Shown here in pieces: positions 14,042 to 58,927 of a stretch of 64,000 bases of DNA. The notes beneath the pieces were generated by a model. That model was not told where the DNA came from and ran no database searches. It worked only from the letters and a program-made list of their open reading frames with translations. Where the stretch lies: assembly GCA_037042915.1 (NCBI GenBank), contig CM073199.1, positions 2,046,001 to 2,110,000 of the forward strand. The letters are read 5' to 3'. A program made the position numbers and the translations under genes. Numbering within the stretch: the first letter of the stretch is position 1; each line of letters starts with the position of its first letter. This DNA comes from Auricularia sp. M13 (lineage: Eukaryota; Basidiomycota; Agaricomycetes; Auriculariales; Auriculariaceae).

Positions 14042-14670
14042 CACACCCTGCAACCAATCCTTATTCATGCCTTTTCCCACAATGAAAATCCAGGAATTAA
14101 CAGTCGAAAAGGCCAAATTTTGCCGATCCAAATAGCCATGGAATATATATCAAAAACATTACCTTTTTGTCCTATTCTGACAAGATTTTCCAACACCGAA
14201 AACACAGGGAATAGGCAATGATAATGCTGTGAAGAGCTATAATTTTCCTTGACTGTTCATAAGCTTTTCGGGTCGGGAAAAGGCTTGGACAATGACAAGT
14301 TTTCACTGAAATTTCACCGGCATTTGCTGGCCTTTTCCCTAATCTGTTGATTCAGCTGACTCAGTTGGAATCGGTCTGAATCAGTCTGAATCATTCTGAA
14401 TCAGTCTGAATCATGTTGAATCATTCAGAATCTGACAGAATCTAGAGATTCAACTGGATTCAAGTTGAATCTGATGAATCCATCTGTTTCAATTGATTCA
14501 TTGATTCAGCAATTCGAACAAGGTGGACGACGGAGGGCCAGAATTCCCTGACACAGAGCAGTCCGCCTCAGTGCCACTTGGCCTCAGTGCCACTTGACGC
14601 AGGTCATCCTGGTGCCACTTGTGCGCTTTTTGAATGACAAGATTCGGACGAGAATTTGAGACGTGAAGGT
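14042..14670 (+). repeat. Left terminal inverted repeat of the outer element
   Basis: Reverse complement of 58299-58927. By eye I find only four mismatches over 629 bp, so it is over 99% identical. Inside it, 14350-14480 is packed with GAATCA/TGATTC words spaced about 10-11 bp, then 14570-14630 holds three copies of GTGCCACTT. The inner end merges with inverted satellite monomers. Confidence 0.9.
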
Positions 14671-17600
14671 CGTTTCGGGCAGCCGAACGAGTCAGAAGTG
14701 ACGTCGGGAGCTCAAAAATCGCCCCTTCAACACCGGAGGAGGGCCGAAGCTCCGATTTGCGCCAGGTGCCACTGGTGCGCTTTTTGAATGACAAGATTCG
14801 GACGAGAATTTGACACGTGAAGGTGGTTTCGGGCAGCCGAACGAGTCAGAACTGTTGTCGGGAGATCAAAAATCGCCCGCAGACCCATTTCACGTCGCCG
14901 AATCGCCGAATCACTCATGGTGCCACTGGTGCGCTTTTTGAATTCGCGTCCGAATCTTGTCATTCAAAAAGCGCACCAGTGGCACCTTGCGCAAAACTGG
15001 AGCTTCGGCCCTGCTCCGGTGTTGAACGGGCGATTTTTGAGCTCCCGACGTCAGTTCTGACTCGTTCGGCTGCCCGAAACCACCTTCACGTGTTAAATTC
15101 GCAACCGAATCTTGTCATTCAAAAAGCGCACCAGTGGCACCTGGCGCAAAACCGGAGCTTCGGGCCTGCTCCGGTGTTGAACGGGCGATTTTTGAGCTCC
15201 CGACATTAGTTCTGACTCGTTCGGCTGCCCGAAACCACCTTCACGTGTCAAATTCGCATCCGAATCTTGTCATTCAAAAAGCGCATCAGTGGCACCTGGC
15301 GCAAAATCGGAGCTTCGGCCCTCCTCCGGTGATGAAGGGGCGATTTTTGAGCTCCCGACGTCAGTTCTGACTCGTTCGGCTACCCGAAACCACCTTCACG
15401 TGTCAGATTCTCCTCCGAATCATGTCATTCAAAAAGCGCACCAGTGGCACCATGAGTGATTCGGCGATTCGGCGACGTGAAATGGGTCTGCGGGCGATTT
15501 TTGAGCTCCCGACGTCAGTTCTGACTCGTTCGGCTGCCCGAAACCACCTTCACGTGTCAAATTCTCCTCCGAATCTTGTCATTCAAAAAGCGCACCAGTG
15601 GCACCTGGCGCAAAATCGGAGCTTCGGCCCTCCTCCGGTGTTGAACGGGCGATTTTTGAGCTCCCGACATTAGTTCTGACTCGTTCGGCTGCCCGAAACC
15701 ACCTTCACGTGTCAAATTCTCCTCCAAATCTTGTCCTTCAAAAAGCGCATCAGTGGCACCTGGCGCAAAACCGGAGCTTCGGGCCTGCTGCGGTGTTGAA
15801 CGGGCGATTTCTGAGCTCCCGACGTCAGTTCTGACTCGTTCGGCTACCCGAAACGACCTTCATGTGTCAAATTCGCGTCCGAATCTTGTCATTCAAAAAG
15901 CGCACCAGTGGCACCATGAGTGATTCGGCGATTCGGCGACGTGAAATGGGTCTGCGGGTGATTTTTGAGCTCCCGATGACAGTTCTGACTCGTTCGGCTG
16001 CCCGAAACCACCTTCACGTGTCAAATTCTCCTCCAAATCTTGTCATTCAAAAAGCGCATCAGTGGCACCTGGCGCAAAACCGGAGCTTCGGGCCTGCTCC
16101 GGTGTTGAACGGGCGATTTCTGAGCTCCTGACGTCAGTTCTGACTCGCTCGGCTGCCGAAACCACCTTCACGTGTCAAATTCGCATCCGAATCTTGTCAT
16201 TCAAAAAGCGCATCAGTGGCACCTGGCGCAAAATCGGAGCTTCGGCCCTCCTCCGGTGATGAAGGGGCGATTTTTGAGCTCCCAACGTCAGTTCTGACTC
16301 GTTCGGCTGCCCGAAACCACCTTCACGTGTCAAATTCGCATCCGAATCTTGTCATTCAAAAAGCGCATCAGTGGCACCTGGCGCAAAACCGGAGCTTCGG
16401 GCCTGCTGCGGTGTTGAACGGGCGATTTTTGAGCTCCCGACATTAGTTCTGACTCGTTCGGCTGCCCGAAACCACCTTCACGTGTCAAATTCTCCTCCGA
16501 ATCTTGTCATTTAAAGAGCGCACCAGTGGCACCATGAGTGATTCGGCGATTCGGCGACGTGAAATGGGTCTGCGGGTGATTTTTGAGCTCCCGATGACAG
16601 TTCTGACTCGTTCGGCTGCCCGAAACCACCTTCACGTGTCAAATTCTCCTCCAAATCTTGTCATTCAAAAAGCGCATCAGTGGCACCTGGCGCAAAACCG
16701 GAGCTTCGGGCCTGCTCCGGTGTTGAACGGGCGATTTCTGAGCTCCTGACGTCAGTTCTGACTCGTTCGGCTGCCCGAAACCACCTTCACGTGTCAAATT
16801 CGCATCCGAATCTTGTCATTCAAAAAGCGCATCAGTGGCACCTGGCGCAAAATCGGAGCTTCGGCCCTCCTCCGGTGATGAAGGGGCGATTTTTGAGCTC
16901 CCAACGTCAGTTCTGACTCGTTCGGCTGCCCGAAACCACCTTCACGTGTCAAATTCGCGTCCGAATCTTGTCATTCAAAAAGCGCACCAGTGGCACCATG
17001 AGTGATTCGGCGATTCGGCGACGTGAAATGGGTCTGCGGGCGATTTCTGAGCTCCCGACGACAGTTCTGACTCGTTCGGCTGCCCGAAACGACCTTCACG
17101 TGTCAAATTCTCCTCCGAATCTTGTCATTCAAAAAGCGCACCAGTGGCACCTGGCGCAAAATCGGAGCTTCGGCCCTCCTCCGGTGTTGAACGGGCGATT
17201 TTTGAGCTCCCGACATTAGTTCTGACTCGTTCGGCTGCCCGAAACCACCTTCACGTGTCAAATTCTCCTCCGAATCTTGTCATTTAAAGAGCGCACCAGT
17301 GGCACCATGAGTGATTCGGCGATTCGGCGACGTGAAATGGGTCTGCGGGTGATTTTTGAGCTCCCGATGACAGTTCTGACTCGTTCGGCTGCCCGAAACC
17401 ACCTTCACGTGTCAAATTCTCCTCCAAATCTTGTCATTCAAAAAGCGCATCAGTGGCACCTGGCGCAAAACCGGAGCTTCGGGCCTGCTCCGGTGTTGAA
17501 CGGGCGATTTCTGAGCTCCTGACGTCAGTTCTGACTCGTTCGGCTGCCCGAAACCACCTTCACGTGTCAAATTCGCATCCGAATCTTGTCATTCAAAAAG

Positions 17601-20600
17601 CGCATCAGTGGCACCTGGCGCAAAATCGGAGCTTCGGCCCTCCTCCGGTGATGAAGGGGCGATTTTTGAGCTCCCAACGTCAGTTCTGACTCGTTCGGCT
17701 GCCCGAAACCACCTTCACGTGTCAAATTCGCGTCCGAATCTTGTCATTCAAAAAGCGCACCAGTGGCACCATGAGTGATTCGGCGATTCGGCGACGTGAA
17801 ATGGGTCTGCGGGTGATTTTTGAGCTCCCGATGACAGTTCTGACTCGTTCGGCTGCCCGAAACCACCTTCACGTGTTAAATTCGCATCCGAATCTTGTCA
17901 TTCAAAAAGCGCACCAGTGGCACCTGGCGCAAAACCGGAGCTTCGGGCCTGCTCCGGTGTTGAACGGGCGATTTCTGAGCTCCTGACGTCAGTTCTGACT
18001 CGTTCGGCTGCCCGAAACCACCTTCACGTGTCAAATTCTCGTCCGAATCTTGTCATTCAAAAAGCGCACCAGTGGCACCTGGCGCAAATCGGAGCATCGG
18101 GTCTGCTCCGGTGTTGGACGGGCGATTTTTGAGCTCCCGACGTCAGTTCTGACTCGTTCGGCTGCCCGAAACCACCTTCACGTGTCAAATTCGCATCCGA
18201 ATCTTGTCATTCAAAAAGCGCATCAGTGGCACCTGGCGCAAAATCGGAGCTTCGGCCCTCCTCCGGTGATGAAGGGGCGATTTTTGAGCTCCCGACGTCA
18301 GTTCTGACTCGTTCGGCTGCCCGAAACCACCTTCACGTGTCAAATTCTCCTCCAAATCTTGTCATTCAAAAAGCGCACCAGTGGCACCATGAGTGATTCG
18401 GCGATTCGGCGACGTGAAATGGGTCTGCGGGTGATTTTTGAGCTCCCGATGACAGTTCTGACTCGTTCGGCTGCCCGAAACCACCTTCACCTGTCAAATT
18501 CTCCTCCGAATCTTGTCATTCAAAAAGCGCATCAGTGGCACCTGGCGCAAAATTGGAGCTTCGGCCCTGCTCCGGTGTTGAACGGGCGATTTCTGAGCTC
18601 CCGACGTCAGTTCTGACTCGTTCGGCTGCCCGAAACCACCTTCACGTGTCAAATTCGCATCCGAATCTTGTCATTCAAAAAGCGCATCAGTGGCACCTGG
18701 CGCAAAACCGGAGCTTCGGGCCTGCTCCGGTGTTGAACGGGCGATTTCTGAGCTCCCAACGTCAGTTCTGACTCGTTCGGCTGCCCGAAACGACCTTCAC
18801 GTGTCAAATTCTCCTCCGAATCATGTCATTCAAAAAGCGCACCAGTGGCACCTGGCGCAAAACCGGAGCTTCGGGCCTGCTCCGGTGTTGAACGGGCGAT
18901 TTTTGAGCTCCCAACGTCAGTTCTGAGTCGTTCGGCTGCCCGAAACCACCTTCACGTGTCAGATTCTCCTCCGAATCTTGTCATTTATAAAGCGCACCAG
19001 TGGCACCATGAGTGATTCGGCGATTCGGCGACGTGAAATGGGTCTGCGGGCGATTTCTGAGCTCCCGACGTCAGTTCTGACTCGTTCGGCTGCCCGAAAC
19101 CACCTTCACGTGTCAAATTCTCGTCCGAATCATGTCATTCAAAAAGCGCACCAGTGGCACCTGGCGCAAAATCGGAGCTTCGGCCCTGCTCCGGTGTTGA
19201 ACGGGCGATTTCTGAGCTCCCGACATTAGTTCTGAGTCGTTCGGCTGCCCGAAACCACCTTCACGTGTCAAATTCTCCTCCAAATCTTGTCCTTCAAAAA
19301 GCGCATCAGTGGCACCTGGCGCAAAACCGGAGCTTCGGGCCTGCTGCGGTGTTGAACGGGCGATTTCTGAGCTCCCGACGTCAGTTCTGACTCGTTCGGC
19401 TGCCCGAAACCACCTTCACGTGTCAAATTCGCATCCGAATCTTGTCATTCAAAAAGCGCATCAGTGGCACCTGGCGCAAAATCGGAGCTTCGGCCCTGCT
19501 CCGGTGTTGAACGGGCGATTTTTGAGCTCCCGACATTAGTTCTGAGTCGTTCGGCTGCCCGAAACCACCTTCACGTGTCAAATTCTCGTCCGAATCTTGT
19601 CATTTAAAAAGCGCACCAGTGGCACCATGAGTGATTCGGCGATTCGGCGACGTGAAATGGGTCTGCGGGCGATTTCTGAGCTCCCAACGTCAGTTCTGAC
19701 TCGTTCGGCTGCCCGAAACCACCTTCACGTGTCAAATTCTCCTCCGAATCATGTCATTCAAAAAGCGCACCAGTGGCACCTGGCGCAAAATCGGAGCTTC
19801 GGCCCTGCTCCGGTGTTGAACGGGCGATTTCTGAGCTCCCGACGACAGTTCTGACTCGTTCGGCTGCCCGAAACCACCTTCACGTGTCAAATTCTCCTCC
19901 AAATCTTGTCCTTCAAAAAGCGCATCAGTGGCACCTGGCGCAAAACCGGAGCTTCGGGCCTGCTCCGGTGTTGAACGGGCGATTTCTGAGCTCCTGACGT
20001 CAGTTCTGACTCGTTCGGCTGCCCGAAACCACCTTCACGTGTCAAATTCGCATCCGAATCTTGTCATTCAAAAAGCGCATCAGTGGCACCTGGCGCAAAA
20101 TCGGAGCTTCGGCCCTGCTCCGGTGTTGAACGGGCGATTTTTGAGCTCCCGACATTAGTTCTGAGTCGTTCGGCTGCCCGAAACCACCTTCACGTGTCAA
20201 ATTCTCGTCCGAATCTTGTCATTTAAAAAGCGCACCAGTGGCACCATGCGTGATTCGGCGATTCGGCGACGTGAAATGGGTCTGCGGGCGATTTCTGAGC
20301 TCCCAACGTCAGTTCTGACTCGTTCGGCTGCCCGAAACCACCTTCACGTGTCAAATTCTCCTCCGAATCATGTCATTCAAAAAGCGCACCAGTGGCACCT
20401 GGCGCAAAATCGGAGCTTCGGCCCTGCTCCGGTGTTGAACGGGCGATTTCTGAGCTCCCGACGACAGTTCTGACTCGTTCGGCTGCCCGAAACCACCTTC
20501 ACGTGTCAAATTCTCCTCCAAATCTTGTCCTTCAAAAAGCGCATCAGTGGCACCTGGCGCAAAACCGGAGCTTCGGGCCTGCTGCGGTGTTGAACGGGCG

Positions 20601-23600
20601 GGTTCTGAGCTCCGAGCGTCAGTTCTGACTCGTTCGGCTGCCCGAAACCACCTTCACGTGTCAAATTCGCATCCGAATCTTGTCATTCAAAAAGCGCATC
20701 AGTCGCACCTGGCGCAAAATCGGAGCTTCGGCCCTGCTCCGGTGTTGAACGGGCGATTTTTGAGCTCCCAACATTAGTTCTGAGTCGTTCGGCTGCCCGA
20801 AACCACCTTCACGTGTCAAATTCTCGTCCGAATCTTGTCATTCAAAAAGCGCACCAGTGGCACCATGAGTGATTCGGCGATTCGGCGACGTGAAATGGGT
20901 CTGCGGGCGATTTCTGAGCTCCCAACGTCAGTTCTGACTCGTTCGGCTGCCCGAAACCACCTTCACGTGTCAAATTCTCCTCCGAATCATGTCATTCAAA
21001 AAGCGCACCAGTGGCACCTGGCGCAAATCGGAGCTTCGGGCCTGCTCCGGTGTTGAACGGGCGATTTTTGAGCTCCCAACGTCAGTTCTGACTCGTTCGG
21101 CTGCCCGAAACCACCTTCACGTGTCAAATTCTCCTCCGAATCATGTCATTCAAAAAGCGCACCAGTGGCACCTGGCGCAAAATCGGAGCTTCGGCCCTGC
21201 TCCGGTGTTGGACGGGCGATTTTTGAGCTCCCGAAGTCAGTTCTGACTCGTTCGGCTGCCCGAAACCACCTTCACGTGTCAAATTCTCCTCCGAATCTTG
21301 TCATTCAAAAAGCGCACCAGTGGCACCTGGCGCAAAATCGGAGCTTCGGCCCTGCTCCGGTGTTGGCTCCCGACGTCAGTTCTGACTCGTTCGGCTGCCC
21401 GAAACCACCTTCACGTGTCAAATTCGCATCCGAATCTTGTCATTCAAAAAGCGCATCAGTGGCACCATGAGTGATTCGGCGATTCGGCGACGTGAAATGG
21501 GTCTGCGGGCGATTTCTGAGCTCCCGACGTCAGTTCTGACTCGTTCGGCTGCCCGAAACCACCTTCACGTGTCAAATTCTCCTCCAAATCTTGTCATTCA
21601 AAAAGCGCACCAGTGGCACCTGGCGCAAAATCGTAGCTTCGGCCCTGCTCCGGTGTTGAACGGGCGATTTTTGAGCTCCGACATTAGTTCTGAGTCGTTC
21701 GGCTGCCGAAACCACCTTCACGTGTCAAATTCGCATCCGAATCTTGTCATTCAAAAAGCGCATCAGTGGCACCTGGCGCAAAATCGGAGCTTCGGCCCTG
21801 CTCCGGTGTTGAACGGGCGATTTTTGAGCTCCCGACGTCAGATCTGACTCGTTCGGCTGCCTGAAACGACCTTCACGTGTCAAATTCTCGTCCGAATCTT
21901 CTCATTCAAAAAGCGCATCAGTGGCACCTGGCGCAAAATCGTAGCTTCGGCCCTGCTCCGGTGTTGAACGGGCGATTTTTGAGCTCCGACATTAGTTCTG
22001 AGTCGTTCGCTGCCCGAAACCACCTTCACGTGTCAAATTCGCATCCGAATCTTGTCATTTAAAAAGCGCATCAGTGGCACCTGGCGCAAAATCGGAGCTT
22101 CGGCCCTGCTCCGGTGTTGAACGGGCGATTTTTGAGCTCCCGACATTAGTTCTGAGTCGTTCGGCTGCCCGAAACCACCTTCACGTGTCAAATTCTCCTC
22201 CGAATCTTGTCATTCAAAAAGCGCACCAGTGGCACCTGGCGCAAAATCGGAGCTTCGGCCCTGCTCCGGTGTTGAACGGGCGATTTCTGAGCTCCCGACG
22301 ACAGTTCTGACTCGTTCGGCTGCCCGAAACCACCTTCACGTGTCAAATTCTCCTCCAAATCTTGTCCTTCAAAAAGCGCATTAGTGGCACCTGGCGCAAA
22401 ACCGGAGCTTCGGGCCTGCTGCGGTGTTGAACGGGCGATTTCTGAGCTCCCGACGTCAGTTCTGACTCGTTCGGCTGCCCGAAACCACCTTCACGTGTCA
22501 AATTCGCATCCGAATCTTGTCATTCAAAAAGCGCATCAGTCGCACCTGGCGCAAAATCGGAGCTTCGGCCCTGCTCCGGTGTTGAACGGGCGATTTATGA
22601 GCTCCCAACATTAGTTCTGAGTCGTTCGGCTGCCCGAAACCACCTTCACGTGTCAAATTCTCGTCCGAATCTTGTCATTCAAAAAGCGCACCAGTGGCAC
22701 CATGAGTGATTCGGCGATTCGGCGACGTGAAATGGGTCTGCGGGCGATTTCTGAGCTCCCGACGTCAGTTCTGACTCGTTCGGCTGCCCGAAACCACCTT
22801 CACGTGTCAAATTCTCCTCCAAATCTTGTCATTCAAAAAGCGCACCAGTGGCACCTGGCGCAAAATCGTAGCTTCGGCCCTGCTCCGGTGTTGAACGGGC
22901 GATTTTTGAGCTCCCGACATTAGTTCTGAGTCGTTCGGCTGCCCGAAACCACCTTCACGTGTCAAATTCGCATCCGAATCTTGTCATTCAAAAAGCGCAT
23001 CAGTGGCACCTGGCGCAAAATCGGAGCTTCGGCCCTGCTCCGGTGTTGAACGGGCGATTTTTGAGCTCCCGACGTCAGATCTGACTCGTTCGGCTGCCTG
23101 AAACGACCTTCACGTGTCAAATTCTCGTCCGAATCTTCTCATTCAAAAAGCGCATCAGTGGCACCTGGCGCAAAATCGTAGCTTCGGCCCTGCTCCGGTG
23201 TTGAACGGGCGATTTTTGAGCTCCCGACATTAGTTCTGAGTCGTTCGGCTGCCCGAAACCACCTTCACGTGTCAAATTCGCATCCGAATCTTGTCATTTA
23301 AAAAGCGCATCAGTGGCACCTGGCGCAAAATCGGAGCTTCGGCCCTGCTCCGGTGTTGAACGGGCGATTTTTGAGCTCCCGACATTAGTTCTGAGTCGTT
23401 CGGCTGCCCGAAACCACCTTCACGTGTCAAATTCTCCTCCGAATCTTGTCATTCAAAAAGCGCACCAGTGGCACCTGGCGCAAATCGGAGCTTCGGGCCT
23501 GCTCCGGTGTTGAACGGGCGATTTTTGAGCTCCCAACGTCAGTTCTGACTCGTTCGGCTGCCCGAAACCACCTTCACGTGTCAAATTCTCCTCCGAATCA

Positions 23601-26397
23601 TGTCATTCAAAAAGCGCACCAGTGGCACCTGGCGCAAAATCGGAGCTTCGGCCCTGCTCCGGTGTTGGCTCCCGACGTCAGTTCTGACTCGTTCGGCTGC
23701 CCGAAACCACCTTCACGTGTCAAATTCGCATCCGAATCTTGTCATTCAAAAAGCGCATCAGTGGCACCATGAGTGATTCGGCGATTCGGCGCGTGAAATG
23801 GGTCTGCGGGCGATTTTTGAGCTCCCGACGACAGTTCTGACTCGTTCGGCTGCCCGAAACCACCTTCACGTGTCAAATTCTCGTCCGAATCTTGTCATTC
23901 AAAAAGCGCACCAGTGGCTCCTGGCGCAAATCGGAGCATCGGGTCTGCTCCGGTGTTGGACGGGCGATTTTTGAGCTCCCGAAGTCAGTTCTGACTCGTT
24001 CGGCTGCCCGAAACCACCTTCACGTGTCAAATTCTCCTCCGAATCTTGTCATTCAAAAAGCGCACCAGTGGCACCTGGCGCAAAATCGGAGCTTCGGCCC
24101 TGCTCCGGTGTTGGCTCCCGACGTCAGTTCTGACTCGTTCGGCTGCCCGAAACCACCTTCACGTGTCAAATTCGCATCCGAATCTTGTCATTCAAAAAGC
24201 GCATCAGTGGCACCATGAGTGATTCGGCGATTCGGCGACGTGAAATGGGTCTGCGGGCGATTTTTGAGCTCCCGACGTCAGTTCTGACTCGTTCGGCTGC
24301 CCGAAACCACCTTCACGTGTCAAATTCTCCTCCGAATCTTGTCATTCAAAAAGCGCACCAGTGGCACCTGGCGCAAAATCGGAGCTTCGGGCCTGCTCCG
24401 GTGTTGAACGGGCGATTTTTGAGCTCCTGACGACAGTTCTGACTTGTTCGGCTGCCCGAAACCACCTTCACGTGTCAAATTCGCATCCGAATCTTGTCAT
24501 TCAAAAAGCGCATCAGTCGCACCTGGCGCAAAATCGGAGCTTCGGCCCTGCTCCGGTGTTGAACGGGCGATTTTTGAGCTCCCAACATTAGTTCTGAGTC
24601 GTTCGGCTGCCCGAAACCACCTTCACGTGTCAAATTCTCGTCCGAATCTTGTCATTCAAAAAGCGCACCAGTGGCACCATGAGTGATTCGGCGATTCGGC
24701 GACGTGAAATGGGTCTGCGGGCGATTTCTGAGCTCCCAACGTCAGTTCTGACTCGTTCGGCTGCCCGAAACCACCTTCACGTGTCAAATTCTCCTCCGAA
24801 TCATGTCATTCAAAAAGCGCACCAGTGGCACCTGGCGCAAAATCGGAGCTTCGGCCCTGCTCCGGTGTTGAACGGGCGATTTCTGAGCTCCCGACGACAG
24901 TTCTGACTCGTTCGGCTGCCCGAAACCACCTTCACGTGTCAAATTCTCCTCCAAATCTTGTCCTTCAAAAAGCGCATCAGTGGCACCTGGCGCAAAACCG
25001 GAGCTTCGGGCCTGCTGCGGTGTTGAACGGGCGATTTCTGAGCTCCCGACGTCAGTTCTGACTCGTTCGGCTGCCCGAAACCACCTTCACGTGTCAAATT
25101 CGCATCCGAATCTTGTCATTCAAAAAGCGCATCAGTCGCACCTGGCGCAAAATCGGAGCTTCGGCCCTGCTCCGGTGTTGAACGGGCGATTTATGAGCTC
25201 CCAACATTAGTTCTGAGTCGTTCGGCTGCCCGAAACCACCTTCACGTGTCAAATTCTCGTCCGAATCTTGTCATTCAAAAAGCGCACCAGTGGCACCATG
25301 AGTGATTCGGCGATTCGGCGACGTGAAATGGGTCTGCGGGCGATTTCTGAGCTCCCGACGTCAGTTCTGACTCGTTCGGCTGCCCGAAACCACCTTCACG
25401 TGTCAAATTCTCCTCCAAATCTTGTCATTCAAAAAGCGCACCAGTGGCACCTGGCGCAAAATCGTAGCTTCGGCCCTGCTCCGGTGTTGAACGGGCGATT
25501 TTTGAGCTCCCGACATTAGTTCTGAGTCGTTCGGCTGCCCGAAACCACCTTCACGTGTCAAATTCGCATCCGAATCTTGTCATTCAAAAAGCGCATCAGT
25601 GGCACCTGGCGCAAAATCGGAGCTTCGGCCCTGCTCCGGTGTTGAACGGGCGATTTTTGAGCTCCCGACGTCAGATCTGACTCGTTCGGCTGCCTGAAAC
25701 GACCTTCACGTGTCAAATTCTCGTCCGAATCTTCTCATTCAAAAAGCGCATCAGTGGCACCTGGCGCAAAATCGTAGCTTCGGCCCTGCTCCGGTGTTGA
25801 ACGGGCGATTTTTGAGCTCCCGACATTAGTTCTGAGTCGTTCGGCTGCCCGAAACCACCTTCACGTGTCAAATTCGCATCCGAATCTTGTCATTTAAAAA
25901 GCGCATCAGTGGCACCTGGCGCAAAATCGGAGCTTCGGCCCTGCTCCGGTGTTGAACGGGCGATTTTTGAGCTCCGACATTAGTTCTGAGTCGTTCGGCT
26001 GCCGAAACCACCTTCACGTGTCAAATTCTCCTCCGAATCTTGTCATTCAAAAAGCGCACCAGTGGCACCTGGCGCAAATCGGAGCTTCGGGCCTGCTCCG
26101 GTGTTGAACGGGCGATTTTTGAGCTCCCAACGCGTCAGTTCTGACTCGTTCGGCTGCCCGAAACCACCTTCACGTGTCAAATTCTCCTCCGAATCATGTC
26201 ATTCAAAAAGCGCACCAGTGGCACCTGGCGCAAAATCGGAGCTTCGGCCCTGCTCCGGTGTTGGCTCCCGACGTCAGTTCTGACTCGTTCGGCTGCCCGA
26301 AACCACCTTCACGTGTCAAATTCTCGTCCGAATCTTGTCGTTTAAAAAGCGCATCAGTGGCACCTGGCGCAAAATCGGAGCTTCGGCCCTGCTCCGG
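14671..26397 (+). repeat. Left 155-bp satellite array
   Basis: About 76 monomers of 154-155 bp. Each contains TCACGTGTCAAATTC, CATTCAAAAAGCGCA, CAGTGGCACC and GGGCGATTT. Two monomer types share one half: type A has GGCGCAAAATCGGAGCTTCG and type B has ATGAGTGATTCGGCGATTCG. Type B starts at about 18386, 19005, 19624, 20243 and 20862, i.e. a higher-order period of 619 bp (four monomers). A 773-bp block is repeated (about 16504 and 17277) and a larger block recurs about 2.6 kb apart (near 22384 and 24980). The first two monomers (to about 14942) run in the opposite direction and belong to the inverted repeat. Confidence 0.95.
14919..14986. repeat. Inversion junction inside the left array
   Basis: The monomer end GTGCGCTTTTTGAA (inverted) meets TTCGCGTCC, then TTCAAAAAGCGCACC reads forward. 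The two 24-bp arms, 14919-14942 and 14963-14986, are perfect inverted copies 20 bp apart. From here the array runs in one direction up to the inner element. Confidence 0.85.
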
Positions 26398-26405
26398 TGT
26401 TGAAC
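26398..26405 (+). repeat. Left 8-bp target-site duplication of the KDZ element
   Basis: TGTTGAAC, part of a type-A satellite monomer (CCGGTGTTGAACGGG). The same octamer follows the right end at 43382-43389, where the monomer resumes with GGGCGAT. Confidence 0.9.
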
Positions 26406-26430
26406 CACCTCAGGTAGCTGCAACCGGGTG

Positions 26431-26471
26431 ACGCTAACCCTATTTTACCCCCCCGGAAAATAGGCTAGCGT
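26431..26471. repeat. Hairpin inside the KDZ terminal repeat (left)
   Basis: ACGCTAACCCTATTTT and AAAATAGGCTAGCGT form a nearly perfect stem around a C-run. The matching hairpin at the right end is 43316-43356 with two base changes. Confidence 0.7.
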
Positions 26472-26529
26472 CAGGCCCGCGCCCGCGCCCGCGTCCGTTG
26501 CAGGTGGGTCAGTGGGACAGCAGGTGGTG

Positions 26530-27235
26530 GTGCGGGTTTCGTTGCGGGTCCCTGTATAGTAGTGCGGTTCCCATTGCGGGTGCGTGAATGCCAGTGCGGT
26601 TCCCATTGCGGGTGCGTGAATGCCAGTGCGGTTCCCGTTGCGGGTCCCTGGGTGCGCCTGCGGCTCCCGTTGCGGGTCCCTGGGTGCGCCTGCGGGTCCC
26701 GTTGCGGGTCCCTGGGTGCGCCTGCGGGTCCCGTTGCGGGTCCCTGGGTGCGCCTGCGGGTCCCGTTGCGGGTCCCTGGGTGCACCTGCGGGCGCCCTGC
26801 GGATACCTGGGTGCGCCGCGGGTGGCCCTGCGGGTCCCTGGGTGCGCCCGCGGGTGGCCCTGCGGGTCCCTGGGTGCGCCCGCGGGTGGCCCTGCGGGTC
26901 CCTGGGTGCGCCCGCGGGTGGCCCTGCGGGACCCATTGCGGATCCCTGGGTACGCATGCGGGTCCGTTGCGGGTCCCTGGGTGCACCTGCGGGTTGCTCT
27001 GCGGGACCCATTGCGGATCACTGGGTACGCCTGCGGGTCCCGTTGCGGATCCCTGGGTGCGCCCGCGGGTGGCCCTGCGGGCACTGCTGCGTGCGGCTTA
27101 TCCCGGTGGGCCCCGCCGTCGCCGGCATCGGCCGCCGCCGCGCCCACCGCCGTCGGCATCGGCCGCCGCCGCGCTCCACCACCGTCGGCATCGGCCGCCA
27201 CCGCTGCCGCCGCCGCCGGTCGCCGCCGGCGCTTA
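26530..27235. repeat. Left subterminal GC minisatellite of the KDZ element
   Basis: Units of about 32 bp built on GTTGCGGGTCCCTGGGTGCG. All six frames stay open across it, giving PRDPQ- or RVPGC-like peptide repeats, which I take as a by-product. G-runs occur every 6-10 bases. It ends at about 27235 in CGGCATCGGCCGCC repeats, followed by AT-rich sequence shared with the right side. Confidence 0.9.
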
Positions 27236-27290
27236 AATCTCAAAAACATTTTCTTTCCCAAACTACAAAACAAATCGAGGCAACACTTAA

Positions 27291-28098
27291 TCTGTACATT
27301 AGTTCCATTTAAAAGCGGCGACACAAAAACTGCATGAAACAAAAATGTCAATCATGAATCCCACATATGTAACCGCAGCTGAAACCTCAACTCAAATCAC
27401 TCAAGTACATTCATATCAGCTAACAAATTTATATTTCAAGTCACCTCTGTTACATCTACGCGCCCGGCCCAGTGCGCGGGTGCAACTGCGGCTGCGGCTG
27501 CGGCTGCGGCTGCGGCTGCGGCTGCGGGTGCGGGTGCGGCAGAGGGCATTCGAGAGCAGACATAAGAAACTCAGCGCCAATCCGGTGACAGCCTCTGCCA
27601 TTACAAAACGTATTTAAGATATGCCAGACGCCTGATTATGCAATTTCAGCCATCGGTGCTATGTGCCCGTTGTTGTACATGAACAAAATAACTGGGGACA
27701 AATTTCAAATCGGAGAAGCAGTGAATGCTTGGAGGGTCTCTCAGTACGTGTGAATGTGTTTATGTGAATGTGGATATGTTGATTTGACTATGGATGTTGA
27801 TGTTTCAAGAAAATGTGCATTGTGAGAAGTACTTGTCACATTCTTTTCATCAGATGCTGGATAATCACCAAAACCCCAGATAAAGATTTACATTCAGATG
27901 CATAAGAGCACATGAGCCTATGTCTGAATTCCAATTTCCCATTGGGACTCAAGTTGCACACCAACTCCTGCATCCGCATCCGCAACCGCGCCCGCAGCCG
28001 CAGCCGCAGCCGCGCCCGCGCCGCTCCGCTTGTACTTGGTTCACACGGAAATTTAGCGCAACAAATCAAAGCTCCAATTTCAAGGAAACCGGCACACG
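27291..28098. other. Non-coding stretch of the KDZ element, left of the companion locus
   Basis: Contains a (GGCTGC)n/(GGGTGC)n run at 27478-27540, a TATGTGCCCGTTGTTGT word at 27660-27676 that recurs at the other end of the element, and GCAGCC/GCGCCC runs at 27975-28025. No gene seen. Confidence 0.6.
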
Positions 28099-42060: not shown

Positions 42061-42129
42061 GTACATATTAAGTGTTGCCTCGATTTAGTTTGTAGTTGGG
42101 GAAAGAAAATGTTTTTGGGAAAGAAAATG

Positions 42130-43290: not shown

Positions 43291-43381
43291 GGACGCGGGC
43301 GCGGGCGCGGGCCTGACGCTAGCCTATTTTCCGGGGGGGTAAAATAGGGTTAACGCCACCCGGTTGCAGCTACCTGAGGTG

Positions 43382-49300: not shown

Positions 49301-52300
49301 CTTCACGTGTCAAATTCTCGTCCGAATCTTGTCATTCAAAAAGCGCACCAGTGGCACCATGAGTGATTCGGCGATTCGGCGACGTGAAATGGGTCTGCGG
49401 GCGATTTTTGAGCTCCGACGTCAGTTCTGACGTTCGGCTGCCGAAACCACCTTCACGTGTCAAATTCTCCTCCAAATCTTGTCATTCAAAAAGCGCATCA
49501 GTGGCACCTGGCGCAAAATCGGAGCTTCGGTCCTGCTCCGGTGTTGAACGGCGATTTTTGAGCTCCCGACATTAGTTCTGAGTCGTTCGGCTGCCCTAAA
49601 CCACCTTCACGTGTCAAATCCGCATCTGAATCTTGTCATTCAAAAGGCGCACCAGTGGCAGGTGGCGCAAATCGGAGCTTCGGGCCTGCTCCGGTGTTGA
49701 ATGGGCGATTTTGAGCTCCCGACGTCAGGTCTGACTCGTTCGGCTGTCCGAAACCACCTTCACGTGTCAAATTCTCCTCCAAATCTTGTCATTCAAAAAG
49801 CGCATCAGTGGCACCTGGCGCAAAATCGGAGCTTCGGCCCTGCTCCGGTGTTGAACGGCGATTTCTGAGCTCCTGACGTCAGTTCTGACTCGTTCGCTGC
49901 CCAAACCACCTTCACGTGTCAAATTCTCGTCCGAATCTTGTCATTCAAAAAGCGCACCAGTGGCACCATGAGTGATTCGGCGATTCGGCGACGTGAAATG
50001 GGTCTGCGGGCGATTTTTGAGCTCCCGGCGTCAGTTCTGACTCGCTCGGCTGCCGGAAACCACCTTCATGTGTCAAATTCTCGTCCGAATCTTGTCATTC
50101 AAAAAGCGCACCAGTGGCACCATGAGTGATTCGGCGATTCGGCGACGTGAAATGGGTCTGCGGGCGATTTTTGAGCTCCTGACGCGTCAGTTCTGACTCG
50201 GTCGGCTGCCGAAACCACCTTCACGTGTCAAATTCTCGTCCGAATCTTGTCATTCAAAAAGCGCACCAGTGGCACCTGGCGCAAATCGGAGCTTCGGGCC
50301 TGCTCCGGTGTTGAACGGGCGATTTTTGAGCTCCCGACGTCAGTTCTGACTCGTTCGGCTGCCCGAAACGACCTTCACGTGTCAAATTCTCGTCCGAATC
50401 TTGTCGTTTAAAAAGCGCATCAGTGGCACCTGGCGCAAAATCGGAGCTTCGGCCCTGCTCCAGTGTTGAACGGGCGATTTCTGAGCTCCCGACGTCAGTT
50501 CTGACTCGTTCGGCTGCCCGAAACCACCTTCACGTGTCAAATTCTCGTCCGAATCTTGTCATTCAAAAAGCGCATCAGTGGCACCTGGCGCAAAACCGGA
50601 GCTTCGGCCCTGCTCCGATGTTGAACGGGCGATTTTTGAGCTCCCGACGTCAGTTCTGACTCGTTCGGCTGCCCGAAACGACCTTCACGTGTCAAATTCT
50701 CGTCCGAATCTTGTCATTCAAAAAGCGCATCAGTGGCACCTGGCGCAAAACCGGAGCTTCGGCCCTGCTCCGGTGTTGAACGGGCGATTTTTGAGCTCCC
50801 GACGTCAGTTCTGACTCGTTCGGCTGCCCGAAACCACCTTCACGTGTCAAATTCTCGTCCGAATCTTGTCATTCAAAAAGCGCACCAGTGGCACCTGGCG
50901 CAAATCGGAGCTTCGGGCCTGCTCCGGTGTTGAACGGGCGATTTTTGAGCTCCCGACGTCAGTTCTGACTCGTTCGGCTGCCCGAAACGACCTTCACGTG
51001 TCAAATTCTCGTCCGAATCTTGTCGTTTAAAAAGCGCATCAGTGGCACCTGGCGCAAAATCGGAGCTTCGGCCCTGCTCCAGTGTTGAACGGGCGATTTC
51101 TGAGCTCCGCGTCAGTTCTGACTCGTTCGGCTGTCCGAAACCACCTTCACGTGTCAAATTCTCCTCCGAATCTTGTCATTCAAAAAGCGCATCAGTGGCA
51201 CCTGGCGCAAAATCGGAGCTTCGGCCCTGCTCCGGTGTTGAACGGGCGATTTCTGAGCTCCCGACGTCAGTTCTGACTCGTTCGGCTGTCCGAAACCACC
51301 TTCACGTGTCAACTTCTCCTCCGAATCTTGACATTCAAAAAGCGCATCAGTGGCACCTGGCGCAAAATCGGAGCTTCGGGCCTGCTCCGGTGTTGAACGG
51401 GCGATTTCTGAGCTCCTGACGTCAGTTCTGACTCGTTCGGCTGCCCGAAACGACCTTCACGTGTCAAATTCTCGTCCGAATCTTGTCATTCAAAAAGCGC
51501 ATCAGTGGCACCTGGCGCAAAACCGGAGCTTCGGCCCTGCTCCAGTGTTGAACGGGCGATTTCTGAGCTCCCGACGTCAGTTCTGACTCGTTCGGCTGCC
51601 CGAAACCACCTTCACGTGTCAAATTCTCGTCCGAATCTTGTCATTCAAAAAGCGCACCAGTGGCACCATGAGTGATTCGGCGATTCGGCGACGTGAAATG
51701 GGTCTGCGGGCGATTTTTGAGCTCCCGACGTCAGTTCTGACTCGTTCGGCTGCCCGAAACCACCTTCACGTGTCAAATTCTCCTCCGAATCTTGTCATTC
51801 AAAAAGCGCACCAGTGGCACCTGGCGCAAATCGGAGCTTCGGGCCTGCTCCGGTGTTGAACGGGCGATTTCTGAGCTCCCGACATTAGTTCTGAGTCGTT
51901 CGCTGCCCTAAACCACCTTCACGTGTCAAATCCGCATCTGAATCTTGTCATTCAAAAAGCGCACCAGTGGCACCTGGCGCAAAATCGGAGCTTCGGGCCT
52001 GCTCCGGTGTTGAACGGGCGATTTTTGAGCTCCCGACGTCAGTTCTGACTCGTTCGGCTGCCCGAAACCACCTTCACGTGTCAAATTCTCCTCCGAATCT
52101 TGTCATTCAAAAAGCGCATCAGTGGCAGGTGGCGCAAATCGGAGCTTCGGGCCTGCTCCGGTGTTGAATGGGCGATTTTTGAGCTCCCGACGTCAGTTCT
52201 GACTCGTTCGGCTGCCCGAAACCACCTTCACGTGTCAAATTCTCGTCCGAATCTTGTCATTCAAAAAGCGCATCAGTGGCACCTGGCGCAAAATCGGAGC

Positions 52301-55300
52301 TTCGGTCCTGCTCCGGTGTTGAACGGGCGATTTTTGAGCTCCCGACATTAGTTCTGAGTCGTTCGGCTGCCCTAAACCACCTTCACGTGTCAAATCCGCA
52401 TCTGAATCTTGTCATTCAAAAAGCGCACCAGTGGCAGGTGGCGCAAATCGGAGCTTCGGGCCTGCTCCGGTGTTGAATGGGCGATTTTTGAGCTCCCGAC
52501 GTCAGTTCTGACTCGTTCGGCTGCCCGAAACGACCTTCACGTGTCAAATTCTCGTCCGAATCTTGTCATTCAAAAAGCGCACCAGTGGCACCTGGCGCAA
52601 ATCGGAGCATCGGGTCTGCTCCGGTGTTGGACGCGCGATTTTTGAGCTCCCGAAGTCAGTTCTGACTCGTTCGGCTGCCCAAAACCACCTTCACGTGTCA
52701 AATTCTCCTCCGAATCTTGTCATTTAAAAAGCGCACCAGTGGCACCATGAGTGATTCGGCGATTCGGCGACGTGAAATGGGTCTGCGGGCGATTTTTGAG
52801 CTCCCGACGTCAGTTCTGACTCGTTCGGCTGCCCGAAACCACCTTCACGTGTCAAATTCTCGTCCGAATCTTGTCATTCAAAAAGCGCACCAGTGGCACC
52901 ATGAGTGATTCGGCGATTCGGCGACGTGAAATGGGTCTGCGGGCGATTTTTGAGCTCCTGACGTCAGTTCTGACTCGTTCGGCTGCCCGAAACCACCTTC
53001 ACGTGTCAAATTCTCCTCCGAATCTTGTCATTCAAAAAGCGCACCAGTGGCACCTGGCGCAAATCGGAGCTTCGGGCCTGCTCCGGTGTTGAACGGGCGA
53101 TTTTTGAGCTCCCGACGTCAGTTCTGACTCGTTCGGCTGCCCGAAACCACCTTCACGTGTCAAATTCTCGTCCGAATCTTGTCATTCAAAAAGCGCACCA
53201 GTGGCACCATGAGTGATTCGGCGATTCGGCGACGTGAAATGGGTCTGCGGGCGATTTTTGAGCTCCCGACGTCAGTTCTGACTCGTTCGGCTGCCCGAAA
53301 CCACCTTCACGTGTCAAATTCTCCTCCGAATCTTGTCATTCAAAAAGCGCACCAGTGGCACCTGGCGCAAATCGGAGCTTCGGGCCTGCTCCGGTGTTGA
53401 ACGGGCGATTTCTGAGCTCCCGACATTAGTTCTGAGTCGTTCGGCTGCCCTAAACCACCTTCACGTGTCAAATCCGCATCTGAATCTTGTCATTCAAAAA
53501 GCGCACCAGTGGCACCTGGCGCAAAATCGGAGCTTCGGGCCTGCTCCGGTGTTGAACGGGCGATTTTGAGCTCCCGACGTCAGTTCTGACTCGTTCGGCT
53601 GCCCGAAACCACCTTCACGTGTCAAATTCTCCTCCGAATCTTGTCATTCAAAAAGCGCATCAGTGGCACCTGGCGCAAAATCGGAGCTTCGGCCCTGCTC
53701 CGGTGTTGAACGGGCGATGTCTGAGCTCCTGACGTCAGTTCTGACTCGTTCGGCTGCCCGAAACCACCTTCACCTGTCAAATTCTCCTCCGAATCTTGTC
53801 ATTTAAAAAGCGCACCAGTGGCACCATGAGTGATTCGGCGATTCGGCGACGTGAAATGGGTCTGCGGGCGATTTTTGAGCTCCCGACGACAGTTCTGACT
53901 CGTTCGGCTGCCCGAAACCACCTTCACGTGTCAAATTCTCGTCCGAATCTTGTCATTCAAAAAGCGCATCAGTGGCACCTGGCGCAAAATCGGAGCTTCG
54001 GTCCTGCTCCGGTGTTGAACGGGCGATTTTTGAGCTCCCGACGTTAGTTCTGAGTCGTTCGGCTGCCCTAAACCACCTTCACGTGTCAAATCCGCATCTG
54101 AATCTTGTCATTCAAAAAGCGCACCAGTGGCAGGTGGCGCAAATCGGAGCTTCGGGCCTGCTCCGGTGTTGAATGGGCGATTTTTGAGCTCCCGACGTCA
54201 GTTCTGACTCGTTCGGCTGCCCGAAACGACCTTCACGTGTCAAATTCTCGTCCGAATCTTGTCATTCAAAAAGCGCATCAGTGGCACCTGGCGCAAAATC
54301 GGAGCTTCGGTCCTGCTCCGGTGTTGAACGGGCGATTTTTGAGCTCCCGACATTAGTTCTGAGTCGTTCGGCTGCCCTAAACCACCTTCACGTGTCAAAT
54401 CCGCATCTGAATCTTGTCATTCAAAAAGCGCACCAGTGGCAGGTGGCGCAAATCGGAGCTTCGGGCCTGCTCCGGTGTTGAATGGGCGATTTTTGAGCTC
54501 CCGACGTCAGTTCTGACTCGTTCGGCTGCCCGAAACGACCTTCACGTGTCAAATTCTCGTCCGAATCTTGTCATTCAAAAAGCGCACCAGTGGCACCTGG
54601 CGCAAATCGGAGCATCGGGTCTGCTCCGGTGTTGACGCGATTTTTGAGCTCCGAAGTCAGTTCTGACTCGTTCGGCTGCCCAAAACCACCTTCACGTGTC
54701 AAATTCTCCTCCGAATCTTGTCATTTAAAAAGCGCACCAGTGGCACCATGAGTGATTCGGCGATTCGGCGACGTGAAATGGGTCTGCGGGCGATTTTTGA
54801 GCTCCGACGTCAGTTCTGACTCGTTCGGCTGCCGAAACCACCTTCACGTGTCAAATTCTCGTCCGAATCTTGTCATTCAAAAAGCGCACCAGTGGCACCA
54901 TGAGTGATTCGGCGATTCGGCGACGTGAAATGGGTCTGCGGGCGATTTTTGAGCTCCCGACGTCAGTTCTGACTCGTTCGGCTGCCGAAACCACCTTCAC
55001 GTGTCAAATTCTCCTCCAAATCTTGTCATTCAAAAAGCGCATCAGTGGCACCTGGCGCAAAATCGGAGCTTCGGTCCTGCTCCGGTGTTGAACGGGCGAT
55101 TTTGAGCTCCCGACATTAGTTCTGAGTCGTTCGGCTGCCCTAAACCACCTTCACGTGTCAAATCCGCATCTGAATCTTGTCATTCAAAAGGCGCACCAGT
55201 GGCAGGTGGCGCAAATCGGAGCTTCGGGCCTGCTCCGGTGTTGAATGGGCGATTTTTGAGCTCCCGACGCGTCAGGTCTGACTCGTTCGGCTGTCCGAAA

Positions 55301-57623
55301 CCACCTTCACGTGTCAAATTCTCCTCCAAATCTTGTCATTCAAAAAGCGCATCAGTGGCACCTGGCGCAAAATCGGAGCTTCGCCCTGCTCCGGTGTTGA
55401 ACGGCGATTTCTGAGCTCCTGACGTCAGTTCTGACTCGTTCGGCTGCCCGAAACCACCTTCACGTGTCAAATTCTCGTCCGAATCTTGTCATTCAAAAAG
55501 CGCACCAGTGGCACCATGAGTGATTCGGCGATTCGGCGACGTGAAATGGGTCTGCGGGCGATTTTTGAGCTCCCGACGTCAGTTCTGACTCGTTCGGCTG
55601 CCCGAAACCACCTTCATGTGTCAAATTCTCGTCCGAATCTTGTCATTCAAAAAGCGCATCAGTGGCACCTGGCGCAAAATCGGAGCTTCGGTCCTGCTCC
55701 GGTGTTGAACGGGCGATTTTTGAGCTCCCGACATTAGTTCTGAGTCGTTCGGCTGCCCTAAACCACCTTCACGTGTCAAATCCGCATCTGAATCTTGTCA
55801 TTCAAAAAGCGCACCAGTGGCAGGTGGCGCAAATCGGAGCTTCGGGCCTGCTCCGGTGTTGAATGGGCGATTTTTGAGCTCCCGACGTCAGTTCTGACTC
55901 GTTCGGCTGCCCGAAACCACCTTCACGTGTCAAATTCTCGTCCGAATCTTGTCATTCAAAAAGCGCACCAGTGGCACCATGAGTGATTCGGCGATTCGGC
56001 GACGTGAAATGGGTCTGCGGGCGATTTTTGAGCTCCCGACGTCAGTTCTGACTCGTTCGGCTGCCCGAAACCACCTTCACGTGTCAAATTCTCCTCCAAA
56101 TCTTGTCATTCAAAAAGCGCATCAGTGGCACCTGGCGCAAAATCGGAGCTTCGGTCCTGCTCCGGTGTTGAACGGGCGATTTTTGAGCTCCCGACATTAG
56201 TTCTGACTCGTTCGGCTGCCCTAAACCACCTTCACGTGTCAAATCCGCATCTGAATCTTGTCATTCAAAAGGCGCACCAGTGGCAGGTGGCGCAAATCGG
56301 AGCTTCGGGCCTGCTCCGGTGTTGAATGGGCGATTTTTGAGCTCCCGACGTCAGGTCTGACTCGTTCGGCTGTCCGAAACCACCTTCACGTGTCAAATTC
56401 TCCTCCAAATCTTGTCATTCAAAAAGCGCATCAGTGGCACCTGGCGCAAAATCGGAGCTTCGGCCCTGCTCCGGTGTTGAACGGGCGATTTCTGAGCTCC
56501 TGACGTCAGTTCTGACTCGTTCGGCTGCCCGAAACCACCTTCACGTGTCAAATTCTCGTCCGAATCTTGTCATTCAAAAAGCGCACCAGTGGCACCATGA
56601 GTGATTCGGCGATTCGGCGACGTGAAATGGGTCTGCGGGCGATTTTGAGCTCCGACGTCAGTTCTGACTCGTTCGGCTGCCCGAAACCACCTTCATGTGT
56701 CAAATTCTCGTCCGAATCTTGTCATTCAAAAAGCGCACCAGTGGCACCATGAGTGATTCGGCGATTCGGCGACGTGAAATGGGTCTGCGGGCGATTTTTG
56801 AGCTCCTGACGTCAGTTCTGACTCGTTCGGCTGCCCGAAACCACCTTCACGTGTCAAATTCTCGTCCGAATCTTGTCATTCAAAAAGCGCACCAGTGGCA
56901 CCTGGCGCAAATCGGAGCTTCGGGCCTGCTCCGGTGTTGAACGGGCGATTTTTGAGCTCCCGACGTCAGTTCTGACTCGTTCGGCTGCCCGAAACGACCT
57001 TCACGTGTCAAATTCTCGTCCGAATCTTGTCGTTTAAAAAGCGCATCAGTGGCACCTGGCGCAAAATCGGAGCTTCGGCCCTGCTCCAGTGTTGAACGGG
57101 CGATTTCTGAGCTCCCGACGTCAGTTCTGACTCGTTCGGCTGTCCGAAACCACCTTCACGTGTCAAATTCTCCTCCGAATCTTGTCATTCAAAAAGCGCA
57201 TCAGTGGCACCTGGCGCAAAATCGGAGCTTCGGGCCTGCTCCGGTGTTGAACGGGCGATTTCTGAGCTCCTGACGTCAGTTCTGACTCGTTCGGCTGCCC
57301 GAAACCACCTTCACGTGTCAAATTCTCGTCCGAATCTTGTCATTCAAAAAGCGCATCAGTGGCACCTGGCGCAAAACCGGAGCTTCGGCCCTGCTCCAGT
57401 GTTGAACGGGCGATTTCTGAGCTCCCGACGTCAGTTCTGACTCGTTCGGCTGTCCGAAACCACCTTCACGTGTCAAATTCTCCTCCGAATCTTGTCATTC
57501 AAAAAGCGCATCAGTGGCACCTGGCGCAAATCGGAGCTTCGGTCCTGCTCCGGTGTTGAACGGGCGATTTTTGAGCTCCCGGCGTCAGTTCTGACTCGTT
57601 CGGATGCCCGAAACCACCTTCAC
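43382..57623 (+). repeat. Right 155-bp satellite array
   Basis: About 92 monomers of the same two types as the left array and in the same direction. The first 8 bp are the KDZ target duplication. Compared with the left array many monomers have lost single bases in CCC, GGG or GGCTG runs, and extra variants occur (CTAAACCACC with CCGCATCTG, and GGCAGGTGGCG). A long block is repeated near 44377, 46842 and 56695. Confidence 0.95.
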
Positions 57624-58297
57624 TAGGCTCGTGACCAGCCGCTTTAGAACTCCGCTGCGCTGCGATGTAAAGCGGCTGGGAACAACGGACGTCACAAACA
57701 TATGTCACACTTTTTGATACTGAGCGTGACACGGGACTTAGCCAAATCGCGCGCCCGCACCTCATGCCACTACCGTCACAAACTTATTTTTTCGTCATAA
57801 TCCAAAAGTTACCATTTATCCCTTCTGAATCGATTTATATAGGGTAATATTTATAAGTTTTGGAAGTATAAAATAGCAACTGGGCACCAAGGAAGTCCAG
57901 GAATGACCCTCATTCGGTAGGGATGGGTCGTAAAGTGATTATCCTATACTTTGGGGAGTCCAGAACGCTCACGGCCGTGCGTTATAGTGGTAGCGGCGCC
58001 AGGCAGGGAGCAGAGCAGACCCAGGCCAATTCACAGCGATAGAGCAATCACCTTGCTCAAATTATTGCACCATATGGCATATTAGTACCCAGAACTAGGA
58101 TATATTGACTCAAATGGACGGGACAGAACACAAGGATGTTGGGTGCTCGGGGGGAAGAGGCGAAATCTGGCTAAGTCCCGCGTCACGTCAGTATCAGCGC
58201 CATCACTCGGTTATGATGCTGTCCAATGTTCCCAGACGCTTCGCATCGGCCCGTCCCAATTTCAAAGTCCGATGCGTCGCGTCTGGTTACGAGACTA
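57624..58297. mobile_element. 674-bp non-autonomous element splitting the outer right inverted repeat
   Basis: Ends TAGGCTCGTGACCAG and, on the opposite strand, TAGTCTCGTAACCAG. It is flanked by CACCTTCAC on both sides (57615-57623 and 58298-58306), i.e. an 8-9-bp duplication of satellite sequence. Subterminal inverted segments also match (GACACGGGACTTAGCC on the left, GGCTAAGTCCCGCGTCAC on the right). The left end has a 12-bp perfect hairpin (CCAGCCGCTTTA / TAAAGCGGCTGG). No coding region. Duplication length fits hAT or Mutator-like families; I cannot choose. Confidence 0.75.
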
Positions 58298-58298
58298 C

Positions 58299-58927
58299 AC
58301 CTTCACGTGTCAAATTCTCGTCCGAATCTTGTCATTCAAAAAGCGCACAAGTGGCACCAGGATGACCTGCGTCAAGTGGCACTGAGGCCAAGTGGCACTG
58401 AGGCGGACTGCTCTGTGTCAGGGAATTCTGGCCCTCCGTCGTCCACCTTGTTCGAATTGCTGAATCAATGAATCAATTGAAACAGATGGATTCATCAGAT
58501 TCAACTTGAATCCAGTTGAATCTCTAGATTCTGTCAGATTCTGAATGATTCAAAATGATTCAGACTGATTCAGAATGATTCAGACTGATTCAGACCGATT
58601 CCAACTGAGTCAGCTGAATCAACAGATTAGGGAAAAGGCCAGCAAATGCCGGTGAAATTTCAGTGAAAACTTGTCATTGTCCAAGCCTTTTCCCGACCCG
58701 AAAAGCTTATGAACAGTCAATGAAAATTATAGCTCTTCACAGCATTATCATTGCCTATTCCCTGTGTTTTCGGTGTTGGAAAATCTTGTCAGAATAGGAC
58801 AAAAAGGTAATGTTTTTGATATATATTCCATGGCTATTTGGATCGGGAAAATTTGGCCTTTTCGACTGTTAATTCCTGGATTTTCATTGTGGGAAAAGGC
58901 ATGAATAAGGATTGGTTGCAGGGTGTG
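58299..58927 (-). repeat. Right terminal inverted repeat of the outer element
   Basis: Mirror of 14042-14670, ending ...GGATTGGTTGCAGGGTGTG. Differences seen: one base each near 58309, 58551, 58722 and 58847. Confidence 0.9.

Follow-up and report, generated by a model that had tools for sequence, protein, structure and literature searches.

CACTA-like Jozin transposons of Chenopodium quinoa are reported to contain, in several elements, satellite arrays of 171-bp monomers (PMC8978399, PMC7320549); one such array has 32.5 monomers (5,550 bp) and lies towards the 3' end of a coding element that is 16,523 bp long and is said to have 'almost complete ends' (PMC8978399). In Drosophila virilis, tandem repeats in the ends of the foldback element Tetris are described as having seeded satellite arrays, and its authors suggested that larger arrays may have disrupted transposition (PMC4079207). 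Enlarged EnSpm elements of 16-20 kb in a red alga and of up to 15.2 kb in Ectocarpus have been reported (PMC12477816, PMC6431247), and basidiomycete Starships are given as 41,942-605,797 bp (PMC13066641). Here we describe an element of the basidiomycete Auricularia sp. M13 located at positions 14042-58927 of a 64,000-nucleotide stretch of DNA, hereafter the window (assembly GCA_037042915.1, contig CM073199.1; C7:2046001-2110000 of a 52.1-Mb genome in 14 contigs; element positions are window positions). The insertion was confirmed as real, and its outer part is quite likely a non-autonomous CACTA/EnSpm-like cut-and-paste transposon whose cargo is its own 155-bp satellite array.

Like Jozin, the element presents a satellite array inside a CACTA-like unit (PMC8978399, PMC7320549). 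Unlike Jozin, three members of its family hold 8.7-49 kb of satellite, no transposase was seen in the satellite-carrying members as far as they were read, and the family offers exact ends, 3-bp duplications and an empty site. With Tetris it has in common that a non-autonomous element with terminal inverted repeats (TIRs) contains internal tandem repeats and has a smaller relative with the same ends; Tetris differs in its 8-10-bp duplications and is probably a Mutator element (PMC4079207), and, in contrast to the disruption suggested for larger arrays, the present members of 9.8-60 kb keep both ends and their duplications. Fungal and giant EnSpm elements are likewise described with CAC..GTG ends and 3-bp duplications (PMC12730594, PMC12477816, PMC6431247), and the present family is unlike them in its satellite cargo and in a 314.8-kb member. 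This member falls in the reported size range of Starships, which have a tyrosine-recombinase captain (PMC13066641); it is set apart from them by its long inverted ends and a Transposase_21 gene. Among literature titles and abstract openings we found neither a satellite array described in a fungal transposon nor a CACTA element longer than 100 kb. CACTA elements with satellite in their interior are already known from Chenopodium; what is new is the size of the arrays, the near-exclusive satellite content (later insertions aside) and the giant relative.

The C7 insertion and its empty site

The features of the element and its target in the window, with strand, are:
13741..14041, + strand: exons of a multicopy repeat (probably a Helitron) that make up the split target on its left side
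14039..14041, no strand: target site duplication TTG, left copy (two copies of the target without the insertion have TTG once)
14042..14670, + strand: left TIR, 629 bp, begins CACACCCTGCAACCAATCCTTAT; its final ~60 bp are satellite
14348..14442, + strand: subterminal 10-bp repeats of the TGAATCAGTC type, TGARTC-rich
14658..14943, - strand: two inverted satellite monomers beside the left end; the 9.8-kb sister copy has five
14941..26405, + strand: 155-bp satellite array, left part
26398..26405, no strand: 8-bp duplication TGTTGAAC of the nested KDZ transposon, left copy
26406..43381, - strand: nested KDZ transposon, 16,976 bp, TIRs of ~390-465 bp
43382..43389, no strand: 8-bp duplication TGTTGAAC of the nested KDZ transposon, right copy
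43390..58298, + strand: 155-bp satellite array, right part, oriented as the left part; monomer matches extend into the right end, to ~58362
58299..58927, - strand: right TIR, 629 bp
58928..58930, no strand: target site duplication TTG, right copy
58931..64000, + strand: right half of the target repeat, with copies at 99% identity on C1, C2 and C9

A sequence-only reading of the window, made from its letters without database searches, had proposed 629-bp inverted ends with about four mismatches and no length difference, TTG on both flanks, and an insertion between two codons of an exon that was recent unless gene conversion had kept the ends alike. The ends are as it described them: the inverted arms 14042-14670 and 58299-58927 have 629 nt each, of which 625 are identical (4 mismatches, 0 gaps), with termini CACACCCTG, written left to right as CACACCCTG...CAGGGTGTG, and a direct repeat of exactly 3 bp, TTG, flanks both. 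Removal of the element and one TTG restores the reading frame VYGTL|SVVGKALL, and uninterrupted protein-level copies of the joined exons occur on C2, C1 and C9 (97% identity) and on C3 (93%); seven more distant protein copies (38-45%) also span the junction. The empty site, which that reading had named as a check, was found in the two copies of the flanks that were fetched: aligned with the joined window flanks, the C9 copy shows no difference and the C2 copy one 1-bp gap, each with a single TTG, so the insertion was exact and recent, as had been suggested. The target differs by about 1% from its sister copies, and the insertion is therefore probably younger than about 1% divergence of its target.

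The exact rejoining of the frame thus stood, and the exon itself proved to lie in a multicopy repeat. Over the 5,073 bp right of the insertion, identity to copies on C1, C2 and C9 is 99%, and two pieces on C3 match most of this right flank at 97-98%; by these alignments the split exon is part of a repeat, and a unique gene is excluded. The repeat is probably a Helitron, since a PIF1-type helicase lies further right in C7 (L021:334-1305, E 7.5e-26); the RepHel protein of Helitrons combines such a helicase with a Rep domain. As 19% of random host positions stay open for 77 codons, the frame of the window exon taken by itself is a weak argument, which is carried instead by the empty-site copies.

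Tandem repeats with a period of 154-155 occupy 14941-26405 and 43381-57623, and the element contains 168 full monomers, with monomer matches totalling 26,075 bp. The proposed ~26 kb of satellite without a gene therefore held for the outer part, where no gene was recognised; the 44.9-kb interval as a whole does hold a KDZ transposase domain (PF18758, open frame 38959-39579 on the - strand, E 4.9e-17). This domain belongs to the 17-kb nested transposon, whose TGTTGAAC duplication comes from a satellite monomer. Because the KDZ transposon sits in the array with an 8-bp duplication of its own, the 44.9 kb did not move as a single unit, contrary to the sequence-only reading; once the nested transposon and one copy of its duplication are subtracted, the outer element measures 27,902 bp. 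Three sister KDZ copies whose flanks were read also have 8-bp duplications, of the Zisupton type, and KDZ matches were present in 5 of 5 large copies, the window copy included (the others being C7:3294694-3313022, C11:1724106-1739924, C1:8642124-8659423 and C10:1068506-1086410). In its domain, inverted ends and 8-bp duplication the nested element is like other KDZ transposons (PF18758) and is notable only for having landed in a satellite array.

G+C-rich minisatellites (32-bp and related units) were observed in and beside both KDZ arms, at window positions 26531-27081 and 42292-43256. Depletion of CpG was looked for and none was seen. The host gene 12.7 kb from the element contains a mitochondrial DNA polymerase exonuclease domain (PF18136, window 2-1297, - strand, E 1.5e-100).

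A family with common termini and a 314.8-kb relative

We searched the genome with the 629-bp end and with the 19-base terminus. The terminus gave 44 matches at three or fewer mismatches, as compared with 4 for the reversed pattern, and its 12 exact matches formed five inverted pairs plus two single ends (C1:8973104 and C2:1850883). The family members, with their target duplications, are:
C7, window 14042-58927: window member, 44.9 kb, duplication TTG
C12:116138-125979: C12 small member, 9,842 bp, duplication CCA
C12:536571-851361: C12 large member, 314,791 bp, duplication CGA
C2:3529910-3589902: C2 member, 59,993 bp, duplication AGT
C3:511093-512749: C3 member, 1,657 bp, duplication TCA
C2:373197, C2:1577986, C3:171380 and C3:2388817: 169-bp miniatures with related termini, duplications TCA, ATA, ACC

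The two C3 miniatures have common flanks in opposite orientation and represent the same insertion in a duplicated segment. A 3-bp direct repeat flanked all 8 independent family insertions that were examined, where chance would give about 1/64 for each; these are the five two-ended members and three independent miniatures, the fourth miniature not being counted separately. Further copies with the same boundaries and 3-bp duplications, another check named beforehand, thus exist. All five two-ended members have termini of the form CACAC...GTGTG, as do the miniatures except for one end that reads CGCAC. Two other insertions fall within reading frames. The 9.8-kb copy splits that of an MFS transporter (166 + 160 codons), with a Pfam match spanning the junction (E 4.9e-34). 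A frame of 532 codons (322 + 210), with an F-box in the first part, surrounds the 314.8-kb copy; since 210 codons without a stop also occur at 3.5% of 199,956 random host positions, the continuity of this frame gives moderate support for insertion. No informative frame was found in the flanks of the C2 and C3 members.

Both single ends were found without a partner: the one at C2:1850883 retains ~350 bp with similarity to the C2 end, and the one at C1:8973104 retains only a short stretch. A candidate 10.9-kb member, C1:7056266/7067121, whose termini have 3 mismatches, was set aside as chance because its left 10 kb has ordinary host-like frames, e.g., a histone H4-like one, as judged by eye. A giant element on C6, drawn from the inverted pair C6:572397-575220 and C6:859916-862738 (~290 kb apart, equal scores), was considered but not retained, because its orientation is unfit and KDZ matches lie in or beside both copies of this pair. 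An exact scan of viral contigs for the 23-base terminus gave 0 matches.

The long ends fell into two subfamilies. In subfamily A, the ends of the window and C12 small members are ~99% alike and that of the C12 large member is 89% identical to the window end over 507 bp, homology among the three extending over at least 507 bp; subfamily B comprises the C2 and C3 ends, with 94% identity over 576 bp, as well as the single end C2:1850883. Alignment of one A end with one B end gave ~61-63%, far above 100 shuffles, and a stricter local alignment joined the first 23 bp only. Common to the long ends are these first 23 bp and a subterminal stretch rich in TGARTC, which has 13 sites on both strands in the 629-bp window end versus 20 in 19,114 bp of sequence flanking the element in the window; counts made in other long ends gave 8-13 sites, except for the single end C2:1850883 (4) and the right C2 end (6). 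Repeated short subterminal motifs are a feature of plant En/Spm. The two arms differ by 0.3% in the large member (substitutions over 2.4 kb, with several indels), 0.6% in the window member, 1.3% in the C12 small member, ~10% in the C3 member and 11% in the C2 member, and because of this span the family insertions look partly young and partly old.

The arms of the 314.8-kb member are inverted, at least 2.3-2.4 kb long and differ by 6 substitutions, and a further inverted match at C12:540423-540887 suggests that they are longer. Of the 18 genomic matches to Pfam Transposase_21 (tnp2), two lie inside this member, so that a CACTA-type transposase gene between the same terminal sequences, which the sequence-only reading had named as a thing to look for, was encountered. 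The gene that was fetched scored 30.6 bits against a cut-off of 28.6, and both copies are 100% identical over 5.6 kb, i.e., one duplicated locus. Since all the matches listed for a repeat just upstream of the gene (L036:444-1192) lie in C12:593-842 kb, the interior seems to hold sequence peculiar to it; the final 0.4 kb of that query is a dispersed repeat with matches in many places.

Satellite arrays carried by the family

Satellite was carried by 4 of the 5 two-ended members: the window member has 168 full monomers, C12 small has 56 and C2 has 316, and of the five matches in C3 one is a full monomer. On average, monomers are 90% identical within the window array and 90% identical to those of C12 small; C2 monomers average 88% among themselves and 75% against those of the window. 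The consensus units of the window and C2 are 82% identical, above the ~61% of the ends of the two subfamilies; better conservation of satellite than of ends hints at exchange or constraint. The first monomers after the left end are inverted, two in the window and five in C12 small, and the remainder run the opposite way, whereas the full monomers of C2 keep one orientation throughout. A 4.5-kb insert in the C2 array (C2:3554228-3558749), which is perhaps a further TIR element, has tandem repeats of 127 bp that mirror each other close to its two ends. The satellite matches listed (117; 26; 150 of 172) all lie within the four satellite-carrying elements or the ends of the large member; these lists are incomplete, the window's own array being missing from two and represented by one monomer in the third, and leave absence elsewhere unproven. 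No monomer was found in three longer pieces of the 314.8-kb member (~16.1 kb, ~5% of the member, covered in all).

As to whether the array travelled with the element, the window monomers differ by ~10% on average. When blocks of ten monomers were compared, 131 of 157 had no partner closer than 1% (median 3.7%) and 26 had one; for single monomers, 102 of 166 had a substitution-free twin. After joining monomers at 1 or 2 substitutions, 56 or 32 types remained, equivalent to 8.7 or 5.0 kb. This pattern can be explained by exchange between monomers but also by recent regrowth. We conclude from the monomer comparison that an array of at least several kilobases arrived with the element, with a clear minimum of ~5-9 kb; it is likely that the entire 26 kb was present at insertion. 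The array is homogenised and perhaps partly regrown. Of the proposal that the satellite block moved whole, the travelling of an array was thus upheld with this minimum, and its full 26-kb extent is likely only.

An alternative that we consider unlikely is that the element moved with few monomers, as a seed for the array, which grew later by unequal exchange, slippage or circle reinsertion. It would account for the 1.66-kb member with its five monomer matches only, for array lengths that vary among members whose ends are ~99% identical, and for the twins and the 26 close blocks of the window. However, most ten-monomer blocks have diverged further than a target that differs by ~1% from its sisters, 56 or 32 monomer types still remain after joining, and the window and 9.8-kb copies have monomer variants and the inverted start in common.

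Assignment, mobilization and meaning

The assignment to CACTA is probable on sequence features: CAC..GTG ends with 3-bp duplications are described as EnSpm/CACTA features in fungi, and the Plavaka termini given in the same source, TGT..ACA or CATCA..TGATG (PMC12730594), are not matched by CACACCCTG. In the mechanism that we propose, a CACTA-type transposase acting in trans would recognize the terminal ~23 bp and the subterminal TGAATC-type repeats, its putative binding sites, excise the entire TIR-array-TIR unit and join it to a 3-bp staggered target. The window copy landed in an exon of a probable Helitron copy, with most of its array presumably present; array length would shift through duplication and exchange of monomer blocks, and a KDZ transposon later jumped into the array. 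The Transposase_21 protein of the 314.8-kb relative, or that of another copy, is the candidate mobilizing enzyme.

Several observations weigh against this scheme. The satellite-carrying members have no transposase as far as they were read (the nested KDZ being a separate transposon), their ends read CACAC and the classical form is CACTA, and the substitution-free twins of 102 of 166 monomers are compatible with growth after insertion. In the frame neighbouring Transposase_21, DUF4218 is sub-threshold (23 bits, cut-off 27), and the presence of Transposase_21 inside the large member by chance has p ~0.1 (~17 loci, 52 Mb).

This last figure also favours the view that Transposase_21 is nested cargo of the large member and that the family's ends are those of some other superfamily of DNA transposons that makes 3-bp duplications, as does the finding that no family end was found close to the two Transposase_21 genes, the only further family terminus inside the member (three or fewer mismatches) being a lone one at C12:549519. 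We regard this view as improbable: EnSpm fits the combination of CAC..GTG ends and 3-bp duplications as reported for fungi (PMC12730594), and none of the listed matches to Plavaka (87) or KDZ (149) falls inside the member, other superfamilies not having been searched. Very remote is an assembly artefact, a misjoin or false inversion within satellite DNA, since, common as misassembly is in long satellite arrays and although the insertion is known here from the assembly alone, the halves of the split target fit together exactly, with one TTG, as they stand in independent copies, seven other independent insertions present the same boundary and 3-bp duplication, and the KDZ insertion carries its own 8-bp duplication.

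Returning to the CACTA/EnSpm-like reading, we tentatively raise the possibility, rather less probable than not, that this lineage consists of dedicated satellite vehicles, the satellite being confined to them and moved in many-kilobase blocks by the transposase of the 315-kb relative, and that the array is functional (in length, chromatin or transposase loading) and not junk. If this were true, the relative would rank with the largest known DDE-type transposons. Provided that it forms a single unit, it would be ~15 times longer than the 16-20-kb EnSpm elements reported (PMC12477816, PMC6431247), and with ~5% of its sequence covered it may be more surprising than the satellite arrays.

It has long been asked how satellite DNA arrives at new sites on chromosomes, and much of the evidence surveyed consists of satellites resembling pieces of transposons or of small elements with few internal repeats. 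Here the vehicle, both of its ends, the target duplication, the empty-site sequence and sister copies of differing array length are visible together, which offers one concrete way for satellite DNA to spread. If arrays do move at tens of kilobases, satellite spread would become directly testable, by strain comparison or an excision assay.

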